Shown: piece after piece, positions 18 through 60,553 of the stretch
Position numbering within the stretch: position 1 is the stretch's first letter
Layout of the letters: every line of letters starts with the position of its first letter
Virus record (IMG/VR): IMGVR_UViG_3300047509_000139
Coordinates: 1-61,500 of that record
DNA length: 61,500 nucleotides
Direction: 5' to 3' (one strand)
Source: a virus
Notes under the pieces: generated by a model
The model's input: the letters and a program-made list of their open reading frames with translations, nothing else
What the model was told of the DNA's origin: nothing
The model's database searches: none
Translations under genes and position numbers: made by a program

Positions 18-797
18 TCACGCGTTACTGGTTTTCCAGTCGCGCTTTTTGGGTTCCGGCTTCGGAAACGTGGGCGGCGCAGCGGGCCGACCTCCCGAAG
101 TTGTATGCGATTCCATCTCCGCCCGCTGAGCGTCGTCGATGAAGTCTACGTCAACCATCGCGCGCACGCCCTTGGTTCGATAGCCGGACGCGCGAAGGTT
201 TGAAGACGCAGCGGCAGCACGAAACATAGTCTGCTCGTGGCCGGCGGCGTAGTTCGCAATATTTCCGGGCGCTACTCCAAGCGAAGACCCTACCGCGTAG
301 CTATCGATGTTCGCGCCGAGGAAGCTGAACGTCCAACCTTCGGATTCCTTCTGCTTGATGAGCGCCTTGACGGTCTCCTTGGTAAACTCCGTCGAGGCGT
401 TCTCCATGCCGTCGGTGATCACCAGGACGATCACGCCGCGGCCGTTGGCGTCGGTCCTTCTAACGCATTCGCCGATCGCGTCGTAGAGCGGGGTGTTGCC
501 GCGCGGGACGTAGCCTTCGAGCGTCAATTCCGGCACGTCGGCGAGCGCCCGATTCTCGTAGCTAACCGTGAGTTCCGGGGTATTGACTGGAGCATCGAAC
601 TGGATCAGCGTCACGTCGTACGTTGAGTCCTTCTCCTGCTTCAGCCCGTTGATGTATTCGTTGTACCCAGAGATAGTACTGGCGCGGTTGCTGTTCATCG
701 AACCGGATCGGTCGAGGACCACGCTCACCAGTACCTTGCTGGTCTTGTCGTTTGGGATATTGCTCGGCGCTTCCGCGCCGGTTGTGGTTGTAGTCAT
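18..797 (-). CDS. von Willebrand factor A (vWA) domain protein
   Basis: 259 aa. Residues about 22-200 form a vWA domain. The metal-ion-dependent adhesion site is visible as LDRSGSM (D-x-S-x-S) near residue 29, with a distal DGMEN motif. The last 40 residues are Pro/Lys-rich and probably disordered. vWA domains bind partners through a divalent metal. The protein has no signal peptide, so it is likely cytoplasmic. It is the leftmost gene, transcribed leftward, in the same orientation as a Ro60-like protein that carries its own vWA domain about 3.4 kb upstream. A shared complex is possible but only inferred. The ATG start is preceded by an A/T-rich stretch with no close upstream gene. Confidence 0.85.
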   Translation of the reverse strand: MTTTTTGAEAPSNIPNDKTSKVLVSVVLDRSGSMNSNRASTISGYNEYINGLKQEKDSTYDVTLIQFDAPVNTPELTVSYENRALADVPELTLEGYVPRGNTPLYDAIGECVRRTDANGRGVIVLVITDGMENASTEFTKETVKALIKQKESEGWTFSFLGANIDSYAVGSSLGVAPGNIANYAAGHEQTMFRAAAASSNLRASGYRTKGVRAMVDVDFIDDAQRAEMESHTTSGGRPAAPPTFPKPEPKKRDWKTSNA

Positions 798-850
798 ATC
801 AATAGTTTACAACGATATGATAGGAAAGTAAAGTTATTTGTAGGAAGTAA

Positions 851-1072
851 TTACCGCTTCGCGTCTTTCACTCCGTACAGCCGCCTGATCTCGTTGCGCT
901 CGCCCTGGTTGATCGAGAGGTCGTGGATCGCTTGGGCCGTCTTGCGGCGGATCTCCTTCATCTCGTGGATCATAGCCTTGTGCCCGCCGAAGATTGCGCG
1001 GCTTGCGGCCTGAGCGATTTCGATGTCCGTAGGGATCGGCTCCTGGTTGTGCCTGTAGGGGCTTAGGGTCAC
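851..1072 (-). CDS. small hypothetical protein
   Basis: 73 aa with a GTG start that overlaps the TGA stop of the upstream gene (GTGA), the junction style used throughout this operon. It is mostly helical and charged, with no recognised domain. A second frame in the same place gives an Arg/Pro-rich product and was discounted. Confidence 0.6.
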   Translation of the reverse strand: MTLSPYRHNQEPIPTDIEIAQAASRAIFGGHKAMIHEMKEIRRKTAQAIHDLSINQGERNEIRRLYGVKDAKR

Positions 1073-1386
1073 AAATCTTTTGCCTCTTCGCCGATCGCAA
1101 CGTTTAGCAAGTTTTGAAGTTCAACGATTCTTGCGGTTGTTTCTTTGTACACCGACGCAAGGTCTTTCAGGCGATTGAGCCCACCCTTCGCGATCAGGTT
1201 GTCGAGCAACGTGTTAGCTTCTGCAAGGAGCGCGCCGTCGTTGCGAACGTCGATGCCTTGCGCTATCCGATGAAGCGCGAGAGGAAAGGCGTGAATCTCT
1301 GCCGACAGTTCTGCGGCCAGCCGGTTCTTTGTCGCCAATTCCACGGTCGTCTGCCCGATCTTGAATATATTCTGCGTATCGCTCAT
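1069..1386 (-). CDS. hypothetical helical protein
   Basis: 105 aa, predicted nearly all-helical (Leu/Ala/Glu-rich), with no membrane segment and no cysteines. The ATG overlaps the upstream TGA (ATGA). No family recognised. Confidence 0.65.
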   Translation of the reverse strand: MSDTQNIFKIGQTTVELATKNRLAAELSAEIHAFPLALHRIAQGIDVRNDGALLAEANTLLDNLIAKGGLNRLKDLASVYKETTARIVELQNLLNVAIGEEAKDL

Positions 1387-1847
1387 GTGATCTTTTCTTC
1401 CCTACACCGCATGCACAGCGCCTTGCCGTCCGCCAGCTTCAGGTCGCCGAACGTTTGAACGACGTGACCGCACTCCAGCGTACAGACGCTGCCGGCCTTG
1501 GTATTCGGGATTGATTCGCTCTTGATTATCCGCTTGTGAAACGGCGAGTTCCGGTCTTCCTTGCGCTCGCCTTCGATCCTCACTTCCACGGTTCGGTCTC
1601 CTTCCGCCGCCACGCGGAGCGTGTTGAGTTGCGGCACGATGTCGCAGTTGTCGCACGTCAACAGCGGGGCCTTGCCGTCTTCGAACGTGGACGTGCAGCA
1701 GAACTCGCAGGCCCAGTGACCGCACGAGCACAGCGTTAGTTCGACTTCCCGTGCTCCGTCGCACTCCGTTCGGACCGGGCACTTGCCGCGCTTCGTCTCC
1801 CACGGGACGGCGTTCACCTGAGCGTTGATCTCAGTTAGGTTTGCCAA
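1383..1847 (-). CDS. zinc-ribbon protein
   Basis: 154 aa. Start is TTG, preceded by GGAGGAGAAAG. Two Cys pairs at residues about 39-50 (CSCGHWACEFCC) and 64-67 (CDNC) look like a treble-clef/RING-like zinc site. A further pair lies at the C-terminus (CTLECGH and CMRC), giving a second zinc site. The role is unknown; multi-cysteine proteins of this kind are common small phage regulators or nucleic-acid binders. Confidence 0.7.
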   Translation of the reverse strand: MANLTEINAQVNAVPWETKRGKCPVRTECDGAREVELTLCSCGHWACEFCCTSTFEDGKAPLLTCDNCDIVPQLNTLRVAAEGDRTVEVRIEGERKEDRNSPFHKRIIKSESIPNTKAGSVCTLECGHVVQTFGDLKLADGKALCMRCREEKIT

Positions 1848-1938
1848 CTTTCTCCTCCGCGATCTTCCGCAGCTGCGCAGCCTCTTCGCGGTGAAGACGA
1901 TTCAAAGCTTCGTCTGATAGGTTGTCAGCGCTAGCCAT
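1831..1938 (-). CDS. 35-aa small protein
   Basis: Short frame beginning MASADNLSDEALNR and ending in EKVGKPN, highly charged and helical. It overlaps the TTG start of the downstream zinc-ribbon gene by 17 nt and supplies that gene's GGAGGAG ribosome binding site, which suggests translational coupling. Confidence 0.5.
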   Translation of the reverse strand: MASADNLSDEALNRLHREEAAQLRKIAEEKVGKPN

Positions 1939-1940
1939 GA

Positions 1941-2228
1941 TTATTCCCGGGATTCCGCTCCAAACTCGACCGGGTCGTAGGTCTTGTGAAAGATCGCGTC
2001 CTTGACCGCGTGAAACTCGCCCTCCACCCCGCGAACTATCCAGCTGCCGACGACGGCTTCCATCTCGCCTTCCAGTGTGCAGATGATCAGCGTCCCATCT
2101 TCCGACGATGGCCGACGCCTGATGAACATGCTACCGTCCGGAACGTTCAGTTCGCGCCGAACTTCCGCGATGTTCTCACCGGTCCATTGAACCGCCTCGA
2201 CCATAACCGGCTTTTTGCGTACCTTCAT
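1941..2228 (-). CDS. conserved phage protein (MKVRKKPVMVEAVQW type)
   Basis: 95 aa. The start was set at the ATG that overlaps the upstream stop (TGAAG junction). The N-terminus KVRKKPVMVEAVQWTGEN and the segment GTLIICTLEGEM fit a small beta-rich protein seen in many phages, where substrate and role are unknown. The reading frame stays open further upstream, but that part has non-coding composition. Confidence 0.75.
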   Translation of the reverse strand: MKVRKKPVMVEAVQWTGENIAEVRRELNVPDGSMFIRRRPSSEDGTLIICTLEGEMEAVVGSWIVRGVEGEFHAVKDAIFHKTYDPVEFGAESRE

Positions 2229-2788
2229 GTAGTCCTTCCGAAGACCATGAACAGCACGGCAAGGCATACTACGACCGCCGCCGCGAGCATGTTGAGGAAT
2301 CCGGTGTTCAGCCCGGTCCCTGGATCGCTCGGGTCCGGCACCTCCGCTTGGAGCGCCCCATAGTGCTCCGTCCACGGGTTGCTGCCCTTGGTTACGTAGT
2401 CTACCATCGCGAACTCCTTCTCCGACCAGCGCTGGAGTTCGCCGTTGAGGTTGCCATGAATATTGTGACCCCACGTACCGATCAGGCAGTGCGTCGGCCA
2501 GATGCATAGCACGTACTTGCCTCCGTCCTTGAGCGCCTTGGTGTAGTCCAGCATCCGCGACCTGAAAGCCGGGTTGCGCGGCGTCCAGATCCCGGACTCC
2601 ACGTCGATCATCCTGTGGCTGTCCATCGTGACGTGTATATCGTCCAACTTGTGTCCTATGCGGTTTACCATCTTGGCTACGCGGTCCATGTCGGCGTTCG
2701 CCACGCTCACGGGCAGCGAAGAGTCCGGCAGGTCCATGAAGTCGTTCTGGGGGTCGATGACCACCAGGTGTACCTTGAGTTTTGCCAT
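2225..2788 (-). CDS. isochorismatase/nicotinamidase-like protein, catalytic Cys absent
   Basis: 187 aa. It matches nicotinamidases (PncA) up to about residue 160: VVIDPQNDF (catalytic Asp), TMDSH and a histidine in THCLIGTWGHNIHG (metal site), and TKG (catalytic Lys). In the family the chain continues with a strand and a conserved cysteine that attacks nicotinamide. Here it ends in a strongly hydrophobic stretch (MLAAAVVVCLAVLFMVFG) with nothing equivalent to the GLATDYCV motif. So either the gene was truncated, or the protein keeps the fold and is tethered to the membrane. An active enzyme would feed NAD+ salvage. Confidence 0.75.
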   Translation of the reverse strand: MAKLKVHLVVIDPQNDFMDLPDSSLPVSVANADMDRVAKMVNRIGHKLDDIHVTMDSHRMIDVESGIWTPRNPAFRSRMLDYTKALKDGGKYVLCIWPTHCLIGTWGHNIHGNLNGELQRWSEKEFAMVDYVTKGSNPWTEHYGALQAEVPDPSDPGTGLNTGFLNMLAAAVVVCLAVLFMVFGRTT

Positions 2789-2830
2789 GGTTAGGTTGGT
2801 TGTTCCTTTCGACTGTTATTCTTGCTTCGT

Positions 2831-3103
2831 TCAGCTTCTCGGGGCCAAGAAGCAGTGAATCTTCCGCCCCTCCGTCCTCGTTGCCATCTTCCAGTCACCG
2901 TTTGGAAAGATCCGCGCACCGGCAGTCAGGAGTATCGACCGCACGTCCGGAACGTTTCTGTCTTTCGGACAGATCACAGTAAGCACGCCTCCCGGATCGA
3001 GCCGCTTTAGCTTGCCGCGAACTTCAGACCAGTCCGAGCGCGACCTCAGTGGCAGTTCCAAGAGGTCGCTCAGGTGCCGATTCTCCGTTCGGACCCTCTC
3101 CAC
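2831..3103 (-). CDS. hypothetical protein
   Basis: 90 aa with a GTG start. Strands around VLTVICPKDRNVPDVRSILL and the ending HCFLAPRS suggest a small alpha/beta fold. No family recognised. It is spaced 9 nt from the upstream gene. Confidence 0.55.
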   Translation of the reverse strand: MERVRTENRHLSDLLELPLRSRSDWSEVRGKLKRLDPGGVLTVICPKDRNVPDVRSILLTAGARIFPNGDWKMATRTEGRKIHCFLAPRS

Positions 3104-3112
3104 GATCTGGAC

Positions 3113-3442
3113 TTACCGGCCGGCTTTCGCCGTAGTAGACAGGCCGAGCTTCTTCTGAAGCGCTGTGATCTGGTTGGTAGCCTCGTTGCGCTTCTCAGCC
3201 GCGGTCTTGAGGCTGTCCACCGTCTGCTCCAGTTCGCGAAGCTTTGCCATGTCGGCCGCCCGGTTGCGCCGCGCGATCTCGGTCCGCAGCACGTCGGTGA
3301 CCTTTACGAGCCAGTCCGGTACATCTTGGCCGAGTTCTTCGTACTCGGACGCTAGGTTACGAGCGTAAGCCGACAAAGATACCGCCTCATCGTTGTCCAG
3401 CACGCGGTCTAGTTGCAGAGCCTTCAATGCTTGGATGTTCAC
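3113..3442 (-). CDS. coiled-coil hypothetical protein
   Basis: 109 aa. The GTG start was chosen over an upstream ATG because it overlaps the upstream stop as GTGA and follows GGAG. Residues about 60-100 form a heptad-like coiled coil (RELEQTVDSLKTAAEKR). No catalytic motif seen. Confidence 0.65.
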   Translation of the reverse strand: MNIQALKALQLDRVLDNDEAVSLSAYARNLASEYEELGQDVPDWLVKVTDVLRTEIARRNRAADMAKLRELEQTVDSLKTAAEKRNEATNQITALQKKLGLSTTAKAGR

Positions 3443-3624
3443 TTTGCTTTTCTCCTCTTCTTTCTCTTCGTGCTCCAACCGCTGGCTGATATATCCAGAG
3501 GCTCGATTGCTTCTACCTTCTTAGGCTTCCCGAGTTCCTCGTTGACGGCCTTCGCACGCAGAAACTTTTGATGACCGCTCACCCGCGCCGGGTGATAGGT
3601 TGAGCCCTTGACGTTGTGAGCCAT
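3439..3624 (-). CDS. small basic protein
   Basis: 61 aa, about a quarter Lys/Arg, ending KRKKRRKAK. Likely a nucleic-acid binder. The ATG touches the stop of the HNH gene upstream (TGATG). Confidence 0.6.
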   Translation of the reverse strand: MAHNVKGSTYHPARVSGHQKFLRAKAVNEELGKPKKVEAIEPLDISASGWSTKRKKRRKAK

Positions 3625-4193
3625 CAGCGCGACCGTGATTTCACCTTCAAAGTTCTAAGCCGATCCAGATTCTCAAGCAACGACAGATTGCTATTGAGCC
3701 CAGCCCACGAAAGCCCCTTTGTACTTCGACGCGCATATTCTATAGAACCAATCCACCTCTCGTACGGCATGCTCCCGCGCGTCTTGTTGCAGTCCTTGCA
3801 GGCCGAGACAAGGTTCTCTTCTACCGTTGCTCCGCCGTCTTCCCAGAGAATAACGTGATCGACCGTAAGCGGGCCTTTTCGACCGCAGTACCGGCATCGG
3901 TACCCGTCGCGCTCGAAGACCTTCCACGCGACGATCTGGTCTATCTGCCGCTGGCTCTTGCGCAGGATAGCCTTGTTCGGTCCGGCGATGTCGAGAACGT
4001 CCGACTGGTTGAGAAACGCCGCCCACTCGGTTTCGTTCATCCGCAGCCAATCGAAGTGAGCAAGCGGGTCGAAGTCTTCGTCCGGAAACGGTACGATGAA
4101 AACCCGCCCGATTCCTCCGTAGACCGCTCCCACCAGCGTGATCCTGTTGCCCACGTCAAGCAGGTCGAGTTCCTTCAACGAAACAACGTTCAT
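3624..4193 (-). CDS. HNH endonuclease
   Basis: 189 aa. The C-terminal half is a classical HNH nuclease with zinc knuckles: YRCRYCGRKGPLTVDHV, then DGGATVEENLVSACKDCN. The N-terminal 100 residues are a separate domain of unknown fold. Start is at the ATG overlapping the stop of the Ro60-like gene (ATGA), so the two are probably translated together. HNH enzymes are often mobile in phages, but the tight coupling to the Ro60-like gene could also mean a role in RNA or DNA cleavage alongside it. Confidence 0.8.
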   Translation of the reverse strand: MNVVSLKELDLLDVGNRITLVGAVYGGIGRVFIVPFPDEDFDPLAHFDWLRMNETEWAAFLNQSDVLDIAGPNKAILRKSQRQIDQIVAWKVFERDGYRCRYCGRKGPLTVDHVILWEDGGATVEENLVSACKDCNKTRGSMPYERWIGSIEYARRSTKGLSWAGLNSNLSLLENLDRLRTLKVKSRSR

Positions 4194-5788
4194 TGCGCGG
4201 CCACCGCAAACCCTGGAGCGAACACCTGATCGAGCGTCAGCAACGGACATGCCATGATCTGATCAACCATGCTAAACCGGTTGACCTTCATTTGTTGCAC
4301 TAAATTTGGGATCGAATAATAATCGACTTGACCCTGTGAGATATCAAACTTAGTAAGCGATACCGGCCCAAGCCCGTAACTGCCTCCGCTCAAGTCAGTT
4401 AGCCCACCGTTCATGTACTGCTCGAACCTGTCCGGACGGGCGTTCTCCTGCACCGCAAACCGCGGCTCGCAGTACGTCTGATAGAAGTAGACGGCCAGTT
4501 CCTTGTCGAACCGCTTCTTGTACTCGTGCCACCTGCCGACGAATACCGGGGCACGGTTCTCGCCGCCGTCGCCAACTATCACGACGCCGTCTATGTCGAA
4601 CTTGTTGGAGATCGCCCAGTCAAGCCCGACACCGTACGACGTTGCTCCGTCCGCCTTGACCCACTTAGTTCCTTGCTGGATCTTCTCTAGCGATAGTCCG
4701 GTTACTTCAGTACCGTGAGCGCCGGTATCGCAGAACACCAGCCACACGCGCCCGGTGACGAACTTTGCGATGGCCGCCGCAACGTGCTTTCCCAGTTCGA
4801 TGCCGACTTCTTGGGACTGGGACTTGTCCAAGATCACCAGCCAGTTTCCGTCGATCCCGCGGCCGGCGTCCTTCTTAGCCTGGATCTGCCGCTCTTGGAG
4901 CTCGCGCAGCATCGTCTTCAGGCTTTCGTCTTCGACTTCTTCGGCGGCTACTGAGGTCTTCAGCGTTGCCTTCTTACTGCCCGTAGCCTTCGACACCTTC
5001 TTGCGGAACGCTTCTTTCAGCCCAGCGTCTCTCGACAGCCCCTTGCGCTCCAAGCTCGCCGCCCGCGTCACGACCTCCGTGTCACTCATCTGGTCCATCG
5101 TCGCCTGAACCACGGCGGAGTCTTCCTGCTTCTTGCCGGAACCGGCCATCGCCCCGCTGACTACCAGCGGAGACAGATGCCACTTGCGGATCGTTGCGGC
5201 AGCCGACGCCGGGTCCATCCGCGACAGGTTCGCAATGTCAGCGAAGATGCTGCCGGGAGCATGGCCAAGCATAATCTTTTGCCCGTCCTCGGCCTTCCGG
5301 AAGCCCCAGAGCGTTCGAGAGACGAACTCCGGAGCCGGCATGCGGGTGAGCGAGTACAGCGCCTTGAGCGGCCTCCGATGGCGTACGGCGAGGCGCTCCC
5401 AATTTCCTGGTTCCGACTGCTTCGCTTCCAAGTACCGACGGATGATCTTCTCTAACGCGTGCTGCCGCCGCGCCTTCGTCCCGCGCTCCATCGAGTAGCG
5501 AAGGGCTTTCAGGAGTTCGCGTGGCGGCTGCAAGCAAAGATGCGCCAGGGAATTCTCAACCAACTCGTCCGGAAACTCCGCAGTGCCAGCCGATATGATA
5601 GGCAGCGCGACCTTCGAGTCCTTGACCTGTCCGTGCGTGAAGTCCCACGCGATCAGCCGCGCGACGAACTCCGGATCTGATGCGCACGCCGGACCAATGA
5701 TCGGCTCATACTCAGCATACTTTCCGTGAGAGGACCGGTGGACTTCCCCGATGATCTGTTCTCTGGTTAACCCTTGCTCTTGCGACAT
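4190..5788 (-). CDS. Ro60/TROVE-like RNA-binding ring protein
   Basis: 532 aa from the ATG at 5788 (MSQEQGLTREQ). An ATG 18 nt upstream would overlap the last stem of the adjacent RNA. Residues about 1-290 are helical repeats rich in basic residues, consistent with the HEAT-repeat ring of Ro60. Residues about 320-520 form a vWA domain with a degenerate MIDAS (LDKSQSQ) and VGDGGENRAP. Ro60 proteins bind misfolded small RNAs in the ring hole and Y RNAs on the outer face; bacterial Rsr acts with RNA-processing enzymes. Three Y-RNA-like genes lie immediately upstream in the same direction, the arrangement known for bacterial Ro60 loci, which supports the call despite weak motif-level identity. 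Confidence 0.7.
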   Translation of the reverse strand: MSQEQGLTREQIIGEVHRSSHGKYAEYEPIIGPACASDPEFVARLIAWDFTHGQVKDSKVALPIISAGTAEFPDELVENSLAHLCLQPPRELLKALRYSMERGTKARRQHALEKIIRRYLEAKQSEPGNWERLAVRHRRPLKALYSLTRMPAPEFVSRTLWGFRKAEDGQKIMLGHAPGSIFADIANLSRMDPASAAATIRKWHLSPLVVSGAMAGSGKKQEDSAVVQATMDQMSDTEVVTRAASLERKGLSRDAGLKEAFRKKVSKATGSKKATLKTSVAAEEVEDESLKTMLRELQERQIQAKKDAGRGIDGNWLVILDKSQSQEVGIELGKHVAAAIAKFVTGRVWLVFCDTGAHGTEVTGLSLEKIQQGTKWVKADGATSYGVGLDWAISNKFDIDGVVIVGDGGENRAPVFVGRWHEYKKRFDKELAVYFYQTYCEPRFAVQENARPDRFEQYMNGGLTDLSGGSYGLGPVSLTKFDISQGQVDYYSIPNLVQQMKVNRFSMVDQIMACPLLTLDQVFAPGFAVAAQ

Positions 5789-5796
5789 AAACTTTA

Positions 5797-5935
5797 GAGG
5801 CAGCATGTCAGTGGACGACTCCTGAAGAGTGATTGACTGTCACTTGCCTTAACCACTAGGCTACTCGGGCATAAGCAAGCGCCCGAGGTTGGATTCGAAC
5901 CAACGTATGCGTGTACGTCCGCTATTCTCTGCCTC
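5797..5935 (-). ncRNA. tRNA-mimic Y RNA-like RNA 3 (permuted: T-arm, acceptor, D-arm, anticodon arm)
   Basis: Read on the minus strand. An outer helix GAGGCAG/CTGCCTC and an inner helix GGACG/CGTCC enclose a tRNA-like module in rotated order: T-arm GTTGG-TTCGAAT-CCAAC, acceptor CTCGGGC/GCCCGAG closed by a 10-nt loop, TA, D-arm GCC-TAGTGGTTAA-GGC, then a hairpin AGTGA-CAGTCAA-TCACT like an anticodon arm (GUC, with A at position 33). The RNA ends therefore sit where the variable loop would be. The helix bulge TACACGC and the 3' strand CACTGACATGC are shared with RNAs 1 and 2 and are the likely protein-binding site. It ends 9 nt before the Ro60-like start. Confidence 0.8.
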
Positions 5936-5942
5936 AACTTGA

Positions 5943-6085
5943 AGGGCGGCATGTCGGTGGACAACTAGCGATTTGGCATCAATTGCTCTACCGTTGAGCT
6001 ATTCCCCCATAAGTGGAGGGGGGAATTCGGAGTCGAACCGAATACAGATTGATAAGTTGCGTGTACGTCCGCCAGTCACCGCCCT
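5943..6085 (-). ncRNA. tRNA-mimic Y RNA-like RNA 2 (permuted, opened at the anticodon loop)
   Basis: Outer helix AGGGCGG/CCGCCCT, inner helix GGA..CAAC/GTTGTCC with the bulge GTACACG. The module reads TCAAT (3' half of the anticodon stem), T-arm TTCGG-TTCGACT-CCGAA, acceptor TTCCCCC/GGGGGAA with a 10-nt loop, TA, D-arm GCTC-AACGGTA-GAGC, then ATTGA (5' half of the anticodon stem). All tRNA stems pair perfectly, but 5' and 3' halves are swapped, as in YrlA RNAs where the Ro60-binding stem replaces the anticodon arm. The gene lies between RNA 1 and RNA 3 with 5-7 nt spacers. Confidence 0.85.
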
Positions 6086-6090
6086 AACTT

Positions 6091-6221
6091 GATCACGGAA
6101 TGTAGGTGCGCTTGTAAGCCATTGCTGGCCGCAACTGGAGTCGAACCAGTAACCTTCTGCTTGAAATACAGACGCTCTACCCAAGTGAACTATGCGTGTA
6201 AGCGCGCCAGTCGCCGGGAAA
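6091..6221 (-). ncRNA. tRNA-mimic Y RNA-like RNA 1 (tRNA module in standard order, anticodon UUC)
   Basis: The helix GGCGCGCTT/AAGCGCACC (one C-A mismatch) plus the 3' motif CACCTACATTCCG match the shared scaffold of RNAs 2 and 3. The module reads D-arm GTTC-ACTTGGGTA-GAGC, anticodon arm TCTGT-ATTTCAA-GCAGA (UUC, Glu-like), T-arm ACTGG-TTCGACT-CCAGT, a 4-bp remnant of the acceptor (CGCA/TGCG), then a hairpin GCCA-GCAA-TGGC. The ends are thus on the acceptor side, and no normal 7-bp acceptor or CCA end can form, so a function as an aminoacylated tRNA is unlikely. It is the first of the three in transcription order; 5' and 3' limits are approximate. Confidence 0.7.
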
Positions 6222-32266: not shown

Positions 32267-32267
32267 C

Positions 32268-32343
32268 GGCCCAGAGCACGAACGGATGAGTGCCCTGACT
32301 TTCAATCAGGTGACAGTGGGGTCAGCACCCACCTGGGCTACCA
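32268..32343 (+). tRNA. tRNA-Glu (UUC), unusual T-loop
   Basis: Acceptor GGCCCAG/CTGGGCT, D-stem GCAC/GTGC, anticodon stem CCTGA/TCAGG, loop CTTTCAA. T-loop GTCAGCA instead of TTCRANY, stem GTGGG/CCCAC intact. Confidence 0.88.
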
Positions 32344-32350
32344 AGTTTTC

Positions 32351-32761: not shown

Positions 32762-32763
32762 AG

Positions 32764-32842
32764 ATCCCCGTATCGGTCCTGTTTCCTAAACAGGTAAAGC
32801 CGTAATTGGACGATGCGAGTTCGAGTCTCGCCGGGGATACCA
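32764..32842 (+). tRNA. tRNA-Arg (CCU) without a normal D-arm
   Basis: Acceptor ATCCCCG/CGGGGAT and T-arm GCGAG-TTCGAGT-CTCGC are standard. The anticodon arm CCTGT-TTCCTAA-ACAGG follows the acceptor after only TATCGGT. A D-loop-like piece GCCGTAATTGGACGAT lies between anticodon arm and T-arm, and CGGT before the anticodon arm can pair with GCCG after it. Encoded CCA. Confidence 0.8.
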
Positions 32843-32843
32843 C

Positions 32844-32920
32844 GGGCGCGTACCGGCCTCGGTTTCTACCCGAGTTCACCGTAATGGACGATGCGGGTTC
32901 AAGTCCCGCCGCGCCTTCCA
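32844..32920 (+). tRNA. tRNA-Arg (UCU) without a normal D-arm
   Basis: Acceptor GGGCGCG/CGCGCCT, TACCGGC, anticodon arm CTCGG-TTTCTAC-CCGAG, then TTCACCGTAATGGACGAT and T-arm GCGGG-TTCAAGT-CCCGC. Same rearrangement as the preceding tRNA-Arg. Confidence 0.8.
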
Positions 32921-59837: not shown

Positions 59838-60518
59838 TTACGCGGCACCTACTGCATCAGTGATAGACATTTGGATTTTCGCGGCGAGCACATTGTCCAC
59901 GGGTGCCATAAACTCATGCTGGCCGACGTATCCCTTGAACGTCAGCGTACCGGCAGAGTTCGGGAAGATCATCTGCAAGCCCGTCAGGACCAGACCGACC
60001 ATCTGGTTCCACATACCAGTCGTGAACGACTGAGTGGCGTCGGCCTTGTTGAAGTTGACCTCGAAGCTGATGTCTCCGCCGTCGATCAGTACGGCCAGTT
60101 TGCGCCGCCAGAATCCCGGCGTGTCATGCGTCGTGATATCGACCACATGTGGCTTAACTGTAGGACCGGTGATCGACCGGACTTGTGTGATCGCGGCGTA
60201 CGTCGGAGGTGACGCTACGTCGCTCATGTTCAAACTGTTGTGTTGCGACCGGGATCGCTACTCCCGACCTTCTGCCGGTTTCCTCGGCAGCACAGACTAT
60301 ATCATCACCCTGTTTTAAAGGGCGTCTCGCGCTTCCAGCCGCTTGGCCGTACGTGCTCTCGCACTAGTCGTTGAACCTGCCCATTTCTGGGATTGGCTGC
60401 TGATTACCATGAGCATATGCTTTTAGGCTTCCCAGCAATTCACGAGATTATTCACTGACCGGTTACCCGGTCAGGCCACAGATTGGGCCATGGTGCCCTT
60501 CGCGGTTGTGATGGCCAT
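59838..60518 (-). CDS. tail tube (major tail) protein, interrupted by a group I intron
   Basis: Exon 1: ATG 60518 to 60478 (MAITTAKGTMAQS plus GT). Exon 2: 60234 to 59838. Spliced length 438 nt gives 145 aa, in frame: MAITTAKGTMAQSVL then NMSDVASPPTYAAITQVRS. AVLIDGGDISFEVNFNKAD and GLQMIFPNSAGTLTFKGYVG match phage tail tube proteins. Without splicing exon 1 stops after 14 codons, and a start at ATG 60227 gives a truncated 129-aa form. Confidence 0.82.
60235..60477 (-). ncRNA. group I intron
   Basis: 243 nt, read on the minus strand, GGCCTGACC... to ...CACAACAG. Hallmarks: CTGACCGG-GTAA-CCGGTCAG hairpin near the 5' end, P4/P6 elements (AATTGCTGGGA, AATCAGCAGCC), P7 strands GTTCAACGACTA and GATATAGTC, GTGC-GAGA-GCAC, and 3' hairpins CTGCCG-7 nt-CGGCAG and CGGGA/TCCCG. 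The 5' exon ends in U and the intron in G, as required. No endonuclease inside; an orphan HNH gene lies nearby. Confidence 0.88.
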
Positions 60519-60553
60519 AAGACCTTTAACTCCTTTTTAGCGTTCGAACGGTG

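Follow-up and report, generated by a model that had tools for sequence, protein, structure and literature searches.

A phage locus that places three differently built transfer RNA (tRNA)-like RNAs beside a Ro60-type gene bears on the purpose of tRNA mimicry in bacterial Y RNAs. The association of Ro60 with Y RNAs in phages is established (PMC7824862, PMC7765460), and 86 phage records are listed with Ro60/TROVE. The bacterial Y RNA YrlA is a circularly permuted tRNA, as known from structure 6CU1 (PMC11472068), and its tRNA-like domain has been reviewed as resembling only the D, T and acceptor arms (PMC8394870). The locus analysed here lies in the IMG/VR virus record IMGVR_UViG_3300047509_000139, positions 1 to 61,500, hereafter called the window. 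On its minus strand, three consecutive RNA elements (RNA1, RNA2 and RNA3) occupy 6220-5798 and are followed by an open reading frame of 532 amino acids (ATG at 5788, end at 4190), with 9-10 nucleotides between the 3' end of RNA3 and the ATG. Each element consists of a complete tRNA-type body on a long helix, which comprises an outer helix A, an internal loop and a helix C that contains a conserved C.A mismatch. Computational comparison shows one covarying docking helix, predicted in all three RNAs, and places its junction with the tRNA body at three different points. The predicted helix extends the anticodon stem in RNA2, which is the known YrlA layout, leaves from the variable region in RNA3, and enters within the acceptor stem in RNA1. 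The locus is probably a module that moves between phages and encodes a Ro60-type ring protein together with its set of Y RNAs, which would serve as tRNA decoys or tethers.

The tRNA bodies were assigned arm by arm. In RNA1 the D arm comes first, followed by the anticodon arm (UCUGU-AUUUCAA-GCAGA), the T arm and a GCAA-capped hairpin; the break in its body lies in the 5' strand of the acceptor stem, and a short stem is capped by the GCAA hairpin. The Rfam tRNA model matches RNA1 with 43.7 bits at 6196-6130. Reading of the sequences of three RNA1 relatives (L001_c, L002_a and L005_a) suggests that three ACG/CGU pairs and a four-pair GNRA hairpin together make up the usual seven acceptor pairs. 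The anticodon-stem halves of RNA2 (6053-6048 and 5983-5978) enclose a T arm (6042-6026), an acceptor hairpin (6025-6019/6008-6002) and a D arm (5999-5985). This RNA aligned end to end with the full YrlA model RF02553, at 32.4 bits, below the 69-bit gathering score, and an anticodon arm for RNA2 was rejected because that alignment shows the anticodon stem split. RNA3 contains a T arm (5904-5888), an acceptor hairpin (5887-5881/5870-5864) and a D arm (5861-5846), after which comes a closed anticodon arm (5844-5828, AGUGA-CAGUCAA-UCACU). Both RNA3 and L005_b, an RNA from one of the related phages, have A for U at loop position 33, which is unusual in a decoding tRNA. All three RNAs keep the elbow formed by the T and D arms, and RNA1 and RNA3 keep the anticodon arm as well. 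A hairpin closes the acceptor stem of RNA2 and RNA3, and as drawn no RNA of the three would offer a free acceptor end for an amino acid. When the modules were circularised, ARAGORN called RNA1 as tRNA-Glu(UUC), RNA2 as tRNA-Trp(CCA) and RNA3 as tRNA-Asp(GUC), and 10 of the 15 circularised modules overall; the natural-order L005_b was the sole module called in linear form, RNA1-3 being uncalled. No call was obtained from 1,500 shuffles or from 900 window slices. Two-sided compensatory change was found at 22 of 34 pairs in the RNA3 class (six relatives aligned) and at 13 of 29 pairs in the RNA1 class (four relatives aligned).

The docking helix was tabulated for 14 RNAs from four phages, a set that omits L001_b, which has an extra base in the stem. 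The 5' side of the stem reads helix A - (R)AC - UNR - C - helix C - N-UACAYG, and the 3' side reads helix C - A - YNG - AYAU - helix A. Pairing was found in 55 of 56 cells of helix C (mean of 39.5 and maximum of 51/56 in 20,000 shuffles of the strands), in 41 of 42 cells of the triplet (shuffle maximum 39) and in 78 of 81 cells of helix A (shuffle mean 45, maximum 63); the strand segments were picked by hand from folds, so this shuffle test is not blind. The conserved mismatch is C.A in 12 RNAs and U.G, a wobble roughly isosteric with it, in two, with no other replacement. RNAalifold on the whole RNAs recovered the same helices with compensatory changes, and single-sequence folds agree, with a basal helix enclosing the tRNA-type arms that is clear for RNA2 and RNA3; the minimum-energy fold of RNA1 alone is mixed, and its assignment comes from the tRNA match and from comparison with relatives. 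A scan for the helix plus UACAYG on both strands of the whole window found exactly three places, those of RNA1 (6207/6111), RNA2 (6072/5962) and RNA3 (5922/5816). Scans of viral contigs with a DNA pattern of the docking helix gave chance matches only, except in L001's own contig. An earlier sequence-only reading of this stretch had described three consecutive RNA-like elements ending 9 nucleotides from a protein gene, with base-pair covariation expected among relatives, and both descriptions are borne out here. Its further statement that each element joins a long helix to a tRNA module holds in that bodies and helix exceed chance, but the outer helix of RNA1 falls short of it. The locus had been placed at 4190-6221; the RNAs and the Ro gene lie as stated, but the cassette goes on past 4190 to an HNH gene and two small open reading frames, as far as 2831.

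The 532-residue protein gave no match in Pfam, PHROGs or NCBIfam, and the Pfam TROVE model PF05731 matched neither this protein nor anything else in the record. A profile search of the PDB reached a phage TROVE protein only at an E value of 0.56. An AlphaFold2 model built on four homologues (predicted local distance difference test, pLDDT, 66; predicted template modelling score, pTM, 0.45) was compared with the PDB using Foldseek, and all nine matches with E < 1e-3 were Ro60/Rsr, with E values from 8e-7 (the best, 2nvo) to 7e-5 over 467-527 alignment columns. Among the matches in a viral fold library is a protein of Gordonia phage VanLee annotated as Ro-like (E 1.3e-6). The residues assigned by motif to the metal site of the vWA domain (DxSxS, T and D; D321-S323-S325, T383 and D407) are intact and invariant in five homologues. 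These computations show a predicted Ro60 fold, and since the protein has Ro60 fold matches and no TROVE-model match, it is filed as a divergent Ro60-fold protein and not as a member of the TROVE model. The sequence-only reading had also proposed a Ro60-like HEAT-plus-vWA protein, with which the fold matches of the model over its length agree, and YrlA-type RNAs recognisable by the YrlA covariance model. The latter held in part: RNA2 has the YrlA connectivity but scores well under the gathering score, and RNA1 and RNA3 have other layouts. The proposal of a phage-borne Ro60 ribonucleoprotein is thereby supported, as judged from sequence comparison and a structural model; the three differently permuted tRNA bodies and the recurrence of the cassette in other phages go beyond it.

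Related cassettes were found in four IMG/VR contigs, L001, L002, L005 and L201, and as in the window the RNAs lie upstream of the Ro60-type gene. The protein is 57-62% identical in L001, L002 and L005, 40% in L201 and about 25-29% in the huge phage LR756511; an initial search of genome contigs with the Ro protein found no bacterial relative. The order RNAs, Ro, HNH, p105, p85 (Table 1) is common to the window, L001 and L002. The L005 cassette is without HNH after Ro, and that of L201 comprises Ro, an HNH gene upstream of Ro and a p105 homologue (E 5e-14), with no match to p85; p105 and p85 were compared by tblastn between contigs and by alignments. Nothing in the 8-kb flanks of L001 and L005 matched the window beyond the cassette, and the L002 flank matched it weakly in one place, at 59 kb (26% identity, E 3e-8). 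L001, L002 and L005 shared nothing with one another beyond the cassette at E 1e-6, save very short matches overlapping the RNA region. A portal gene lies near the L002 cassette and a terminase gene near that of L005. Because the shared genes stop at p85 and the flanks share almost nothing, the comparison suggests that the cassette is a mobile phage module. The RNA complement varies: the RNAs of L005 are of class III, of natural order and of class II (classes as in Table 1), plus one with a docking helix and no tRNA body (5385-5500), and L201 has, by sequence reading, class III, class I and an "anticodon-first" RNA. The idea of one RNA of each class per phage was rejected, as it fails in L005 and L201. 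L005_b consists of a natural-order tRNA-Glu followed by CCA, inside the docking helix.

The role preferred here is that of a decoy or tether for tRNA-handling host enzymes. Ro60 would bind the common docking helix and present the tRNA look-alikes in three orientations, and these would recruit or sequester host proteins that recognise tRNA, which may be modifying enzymes, enzymes of RNA decay (PNPase, for example) or defence nucleases that cut tRNA. The recognised part would be the tRNA elbow, with RNA1 and RNA3 offering an anticodon arm in addition, and phage translation would rely on the 30 ordinary tRNAs carried by the contig at 29.3-32.8 kb. YrlA is bound and modified like tRNA (DusA, TruB), and PNPase is a partner of Rsr with its Y RNA (PMC8394870). 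Phage tRNAs counter tRNA-cutting defences (PMC10264068, PMC11555353), and Salmonella YrlA has been proposed to inhibit an anticodon nuclease (PMC7790460); for the present RNAs, a role directed specifically against anticodon nucleases is rather doubtful. Several points weigh against the proposal as a whole. The anticodons vary between relatives, so no single nuclease target is indicated, and no match to RtcB or an RNA-ligase family was found in the window, so a link to tRNA repair is not visible, though the contig represents only a fragment. The outer helix A of RNA1 is short and imperfect, the protein model is moderate, with TM-scores to Ro60 structures of 0.32-0.37 and a closed ring that is no more than a candidate, and only five contigs of this cassette type were found.

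The RNA cassette might instead be mainly a cis-acting leader, in which the Ro protein binds RNA3 by its own start codon and represses its own translation. RNA3 ends at the ribosome landing site, where no clear ribosome-binding site is seen, and an RNA also stands directly before the Ro start in L001 and L002; however, two further RNAs with different bodies would be superfluous for this purpose, and the last RNA lies well upstream of Ro in L005 and L201. A leader as the main function is improbable, and autoregulation through RNA3 would be compatible with the decoy or tether role as an added feature.

It is more improbable still that all three are ordinary YrlA RNAs, the permutations of RNA1 and RNA3 having been over-read from degenerate sequence. 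In favour of this, YrlA is itself an established case of circularly permuted tRNA (PMC11472068, structure 6CU1), and RF02553 matches RNA3 partially at 24.7 bits, little above the 22.1 bits given by two adjacent ordinary tRNAs; RNA1 has no match to it. Against this account, the D and anticodon arms of RNA1 precede its T arm, the closed 5-bp anticodon arm of RNA3 follows its D arm, both layouts are found again, with compensatory changes, in L001, L002 and L005 (class III also in L201 by reading), and ARAGORN accepts RNA1 and RNA3 only when rejoined. Equally hard to sustain is the view, modelled on some algae and archaea, that the locus holds permuted tRNA genes from whose transcripts working tRNAs are made by cutting and rejoining, with the docking helix as a processing signal: the bodies have near-complete tRNA features including anticodon loops, some acceptor loops hold CCA-like text (GCCA in L005_e), and L005_b carries its CCA, but RNA1-type acceptors are GNRA-capped with no space for CCA, RNA3 is without U33, the contig has its ordinary tRNAs, and the conserved part is the helix, beside a Ro60 gene. 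Processing of permuted tRNA genes by cutting and rejoining is not known from bacteria, which counts further against that view. An origin of the permuted bodies by fusion of neighbouring tRNA genes, an idea taken from the recurrence of CUUAU in acceptor loops, was rejected, as TTAT occurs in only 1 of 25 spacers of the window's tRNA array and the mimics show no close resemblance to the tRNAs of the phage itself.

Docking helices were also found inside tRNA genes of other phages. Two natural-ended tRNA-like genes of crAss001 (L035, MH675552; 4618-4772 and 4876-5024) are split by a Ro-type docking helix with the motif GUUACUUC; they lie downstream of a TROVE gene and are unannotated in the stretch shown. 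Rfam matches the first as a tRNA with a long insert at 46.6 bits. Five regions of LR756511 (595 kb) likewise have a docking helix within a natural-ended tRNA, and its locus at 780-3598 (L003) holds at least five interrupted tRNAs, two natural tRNAs within an outer docking helix and one class II RNA. ARAGORN called none of the interrupted regions intact and called tRNAs once 40-80 nucleotides were excised, and six shuffles of each gave no call. Within L003 at 1680-2000, the 5' strand of a docking helix is followed by GACGGUCAUAAGGUAGCGAG, which we take to resemble a 23S rRNA segment; Rfam gave no rRNA match there at E 0.5. Phages could be attaching the docking helix as a plug-in to almost any part of a tRNA, and where the ends are natural and possibly chargeable (crAss001, LR756511, L005_b) Ro60 would hold working tRNAs as well as decoys, but this extension is unlikely.

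TROVE loci were surveyed (80 Streptomyces-type bacterial, 80 viral and 13 GenBank phage) with a descriptor of a T arm followed by a closed acceptor hairpin. Class I and the anticodon-first design, opened between the D and anticodon arms, were common. All class II matches fell within natural tRNAs called as such (tandem genes), and outside these class III was seen once, in a doubtful case (L122). The descriptor demanded U33 and thereby missed RNA3 and some hand-assigned members, and the survey covered mainly Actinobacteria-type TROVE proteins, so any confinement of these designs to the present clade is provisional. Many loci of Streptomyces and relatives (L038-L117, about 2450-2870) have a closed-anticodon-arm-first RNA beside a class I RNA. 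Annotated tRNAs adjoining TROVE in GenBank phages (L032 2629-2700, L033 2720-2793, L031 2793-2867 and L027 2173-2240) overlap or resemble Y RNAs and may be mis-annotated. A permuted transfer-messenger RNA (tmRNA) match in Brevundimonas phage Kikimora (L031 6368-6713; 57.7 bits against a 47-bit threshold) is not annotated as tmRNA.

Like the Ro60 and YrlA systems of bacteria and phages (RF02553; Salmonella 6CU1), the cassette places a Ro60-fold protein beside RNAs in which a circularly permuted tRNA body stands on a basal docking helix, and the layout of RNA2 is identical to that of the YrlA model (T arm, acceptor hairpin and D arm in a stem at the anticodon position). It differs in that its protein is invisible to the TROVE model and in that RNA1 and RNA3 use other permutation points and keep the anticodon arm; the docking motif is UACACG here and ACUUC in other TROVE phages. 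LR756511 has in common with the cassette a homologous Ro protein, a docking motif with UACA and one RNA laid out like RNA3 (L003_II), whereas most of its RNAs are natural-ended tRNAs into which the docking helix is inserted. The TROVE loci of Streptomyces and actinophages share class I RNAs with closed acceptor hairpins beside the TROVE gene, but their second design is opened between the D and anticodon arms; in 160 loci, class II was absent and class III had one doubtful case. A literature search found no mention of several permutations per cassette or of docking helices in tRNA genes; the primary Y RNA papers Chen 2014 and Wang 2018 were outside its scope, which limits the claim of novelty. 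The set of rewired tRNA shapes, two of them keeping the anticodon arm, appears to be new.

Table 1. Coordinates of the predicted RNA elements and genes of the cassette in the window.
Feature	Position	Strand	Description
RNA1 (class III)	6092..6220	-	docking helix around D arm - anticodon arm - T arm - GCAA-capped hairpin
RNA2 (class I, canonical YrlA layout)	5944..6085	-	opened in anticodon loop
RNA3 (class II)	5798..5934	-	opened in variable region
Predicted Ro60-fold protein, divergent, 532 aa	4190..5788	-	helical-repeat N-terminus and vWA C-terminus
HNH endonuclease gene	3624..4193	-	overlaps Ro stop codon; Pfam HNH PF01844, E 2.8e-13
p105, conserved small protein, 121 aa	3113..3478	-	cassette member in all five phage contigs
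p85, conserved small protein, 90 aa	2831..3103	-	last cassette gene common to window, L001, L002 and L005

Of the two small proteins, p105 has no confident Pfam family and belongs to no known family, and p85 has no Pfam family and no homologue among GenBank phages. A scan of the window found no sigma-70 promoter; one is readable by eye in L001 and L002. Elsewhere in the window, a second vWA-type protein is encoded at 18-797 on the minus strand (phrog_7371, E 3.6e-51, function of the phrog unassigned), and a group I intron lies at 60272-60537 on the minus strand (78.8 bits). By eye, a glutamate-type tRNA-like gene with an odd T loop and two arginine-type ones with an odd D region, uncalled by ARAGORN, were noted at 32267-32345 and 32762-32900, coordinates that are listed jointly.

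Insofar as three orientations of one tRNA mimic occur together, the cassette constitutes a natural experiment on the purpose of this mimicry. The elbow and closed acceptor, common to all three RNAs, are the best candidate for a common function, and the differences between the RNAs are open to testing one at a time. The comparison also suggests that Y RNAs have been overlooked or mislabelled as tRNAs in phage genomes, including that of the cultured phage crAss001. If Ro60 did hold working tRNAs, tRNA would be stored, protected or delivered in the infected cell in a way not described before.

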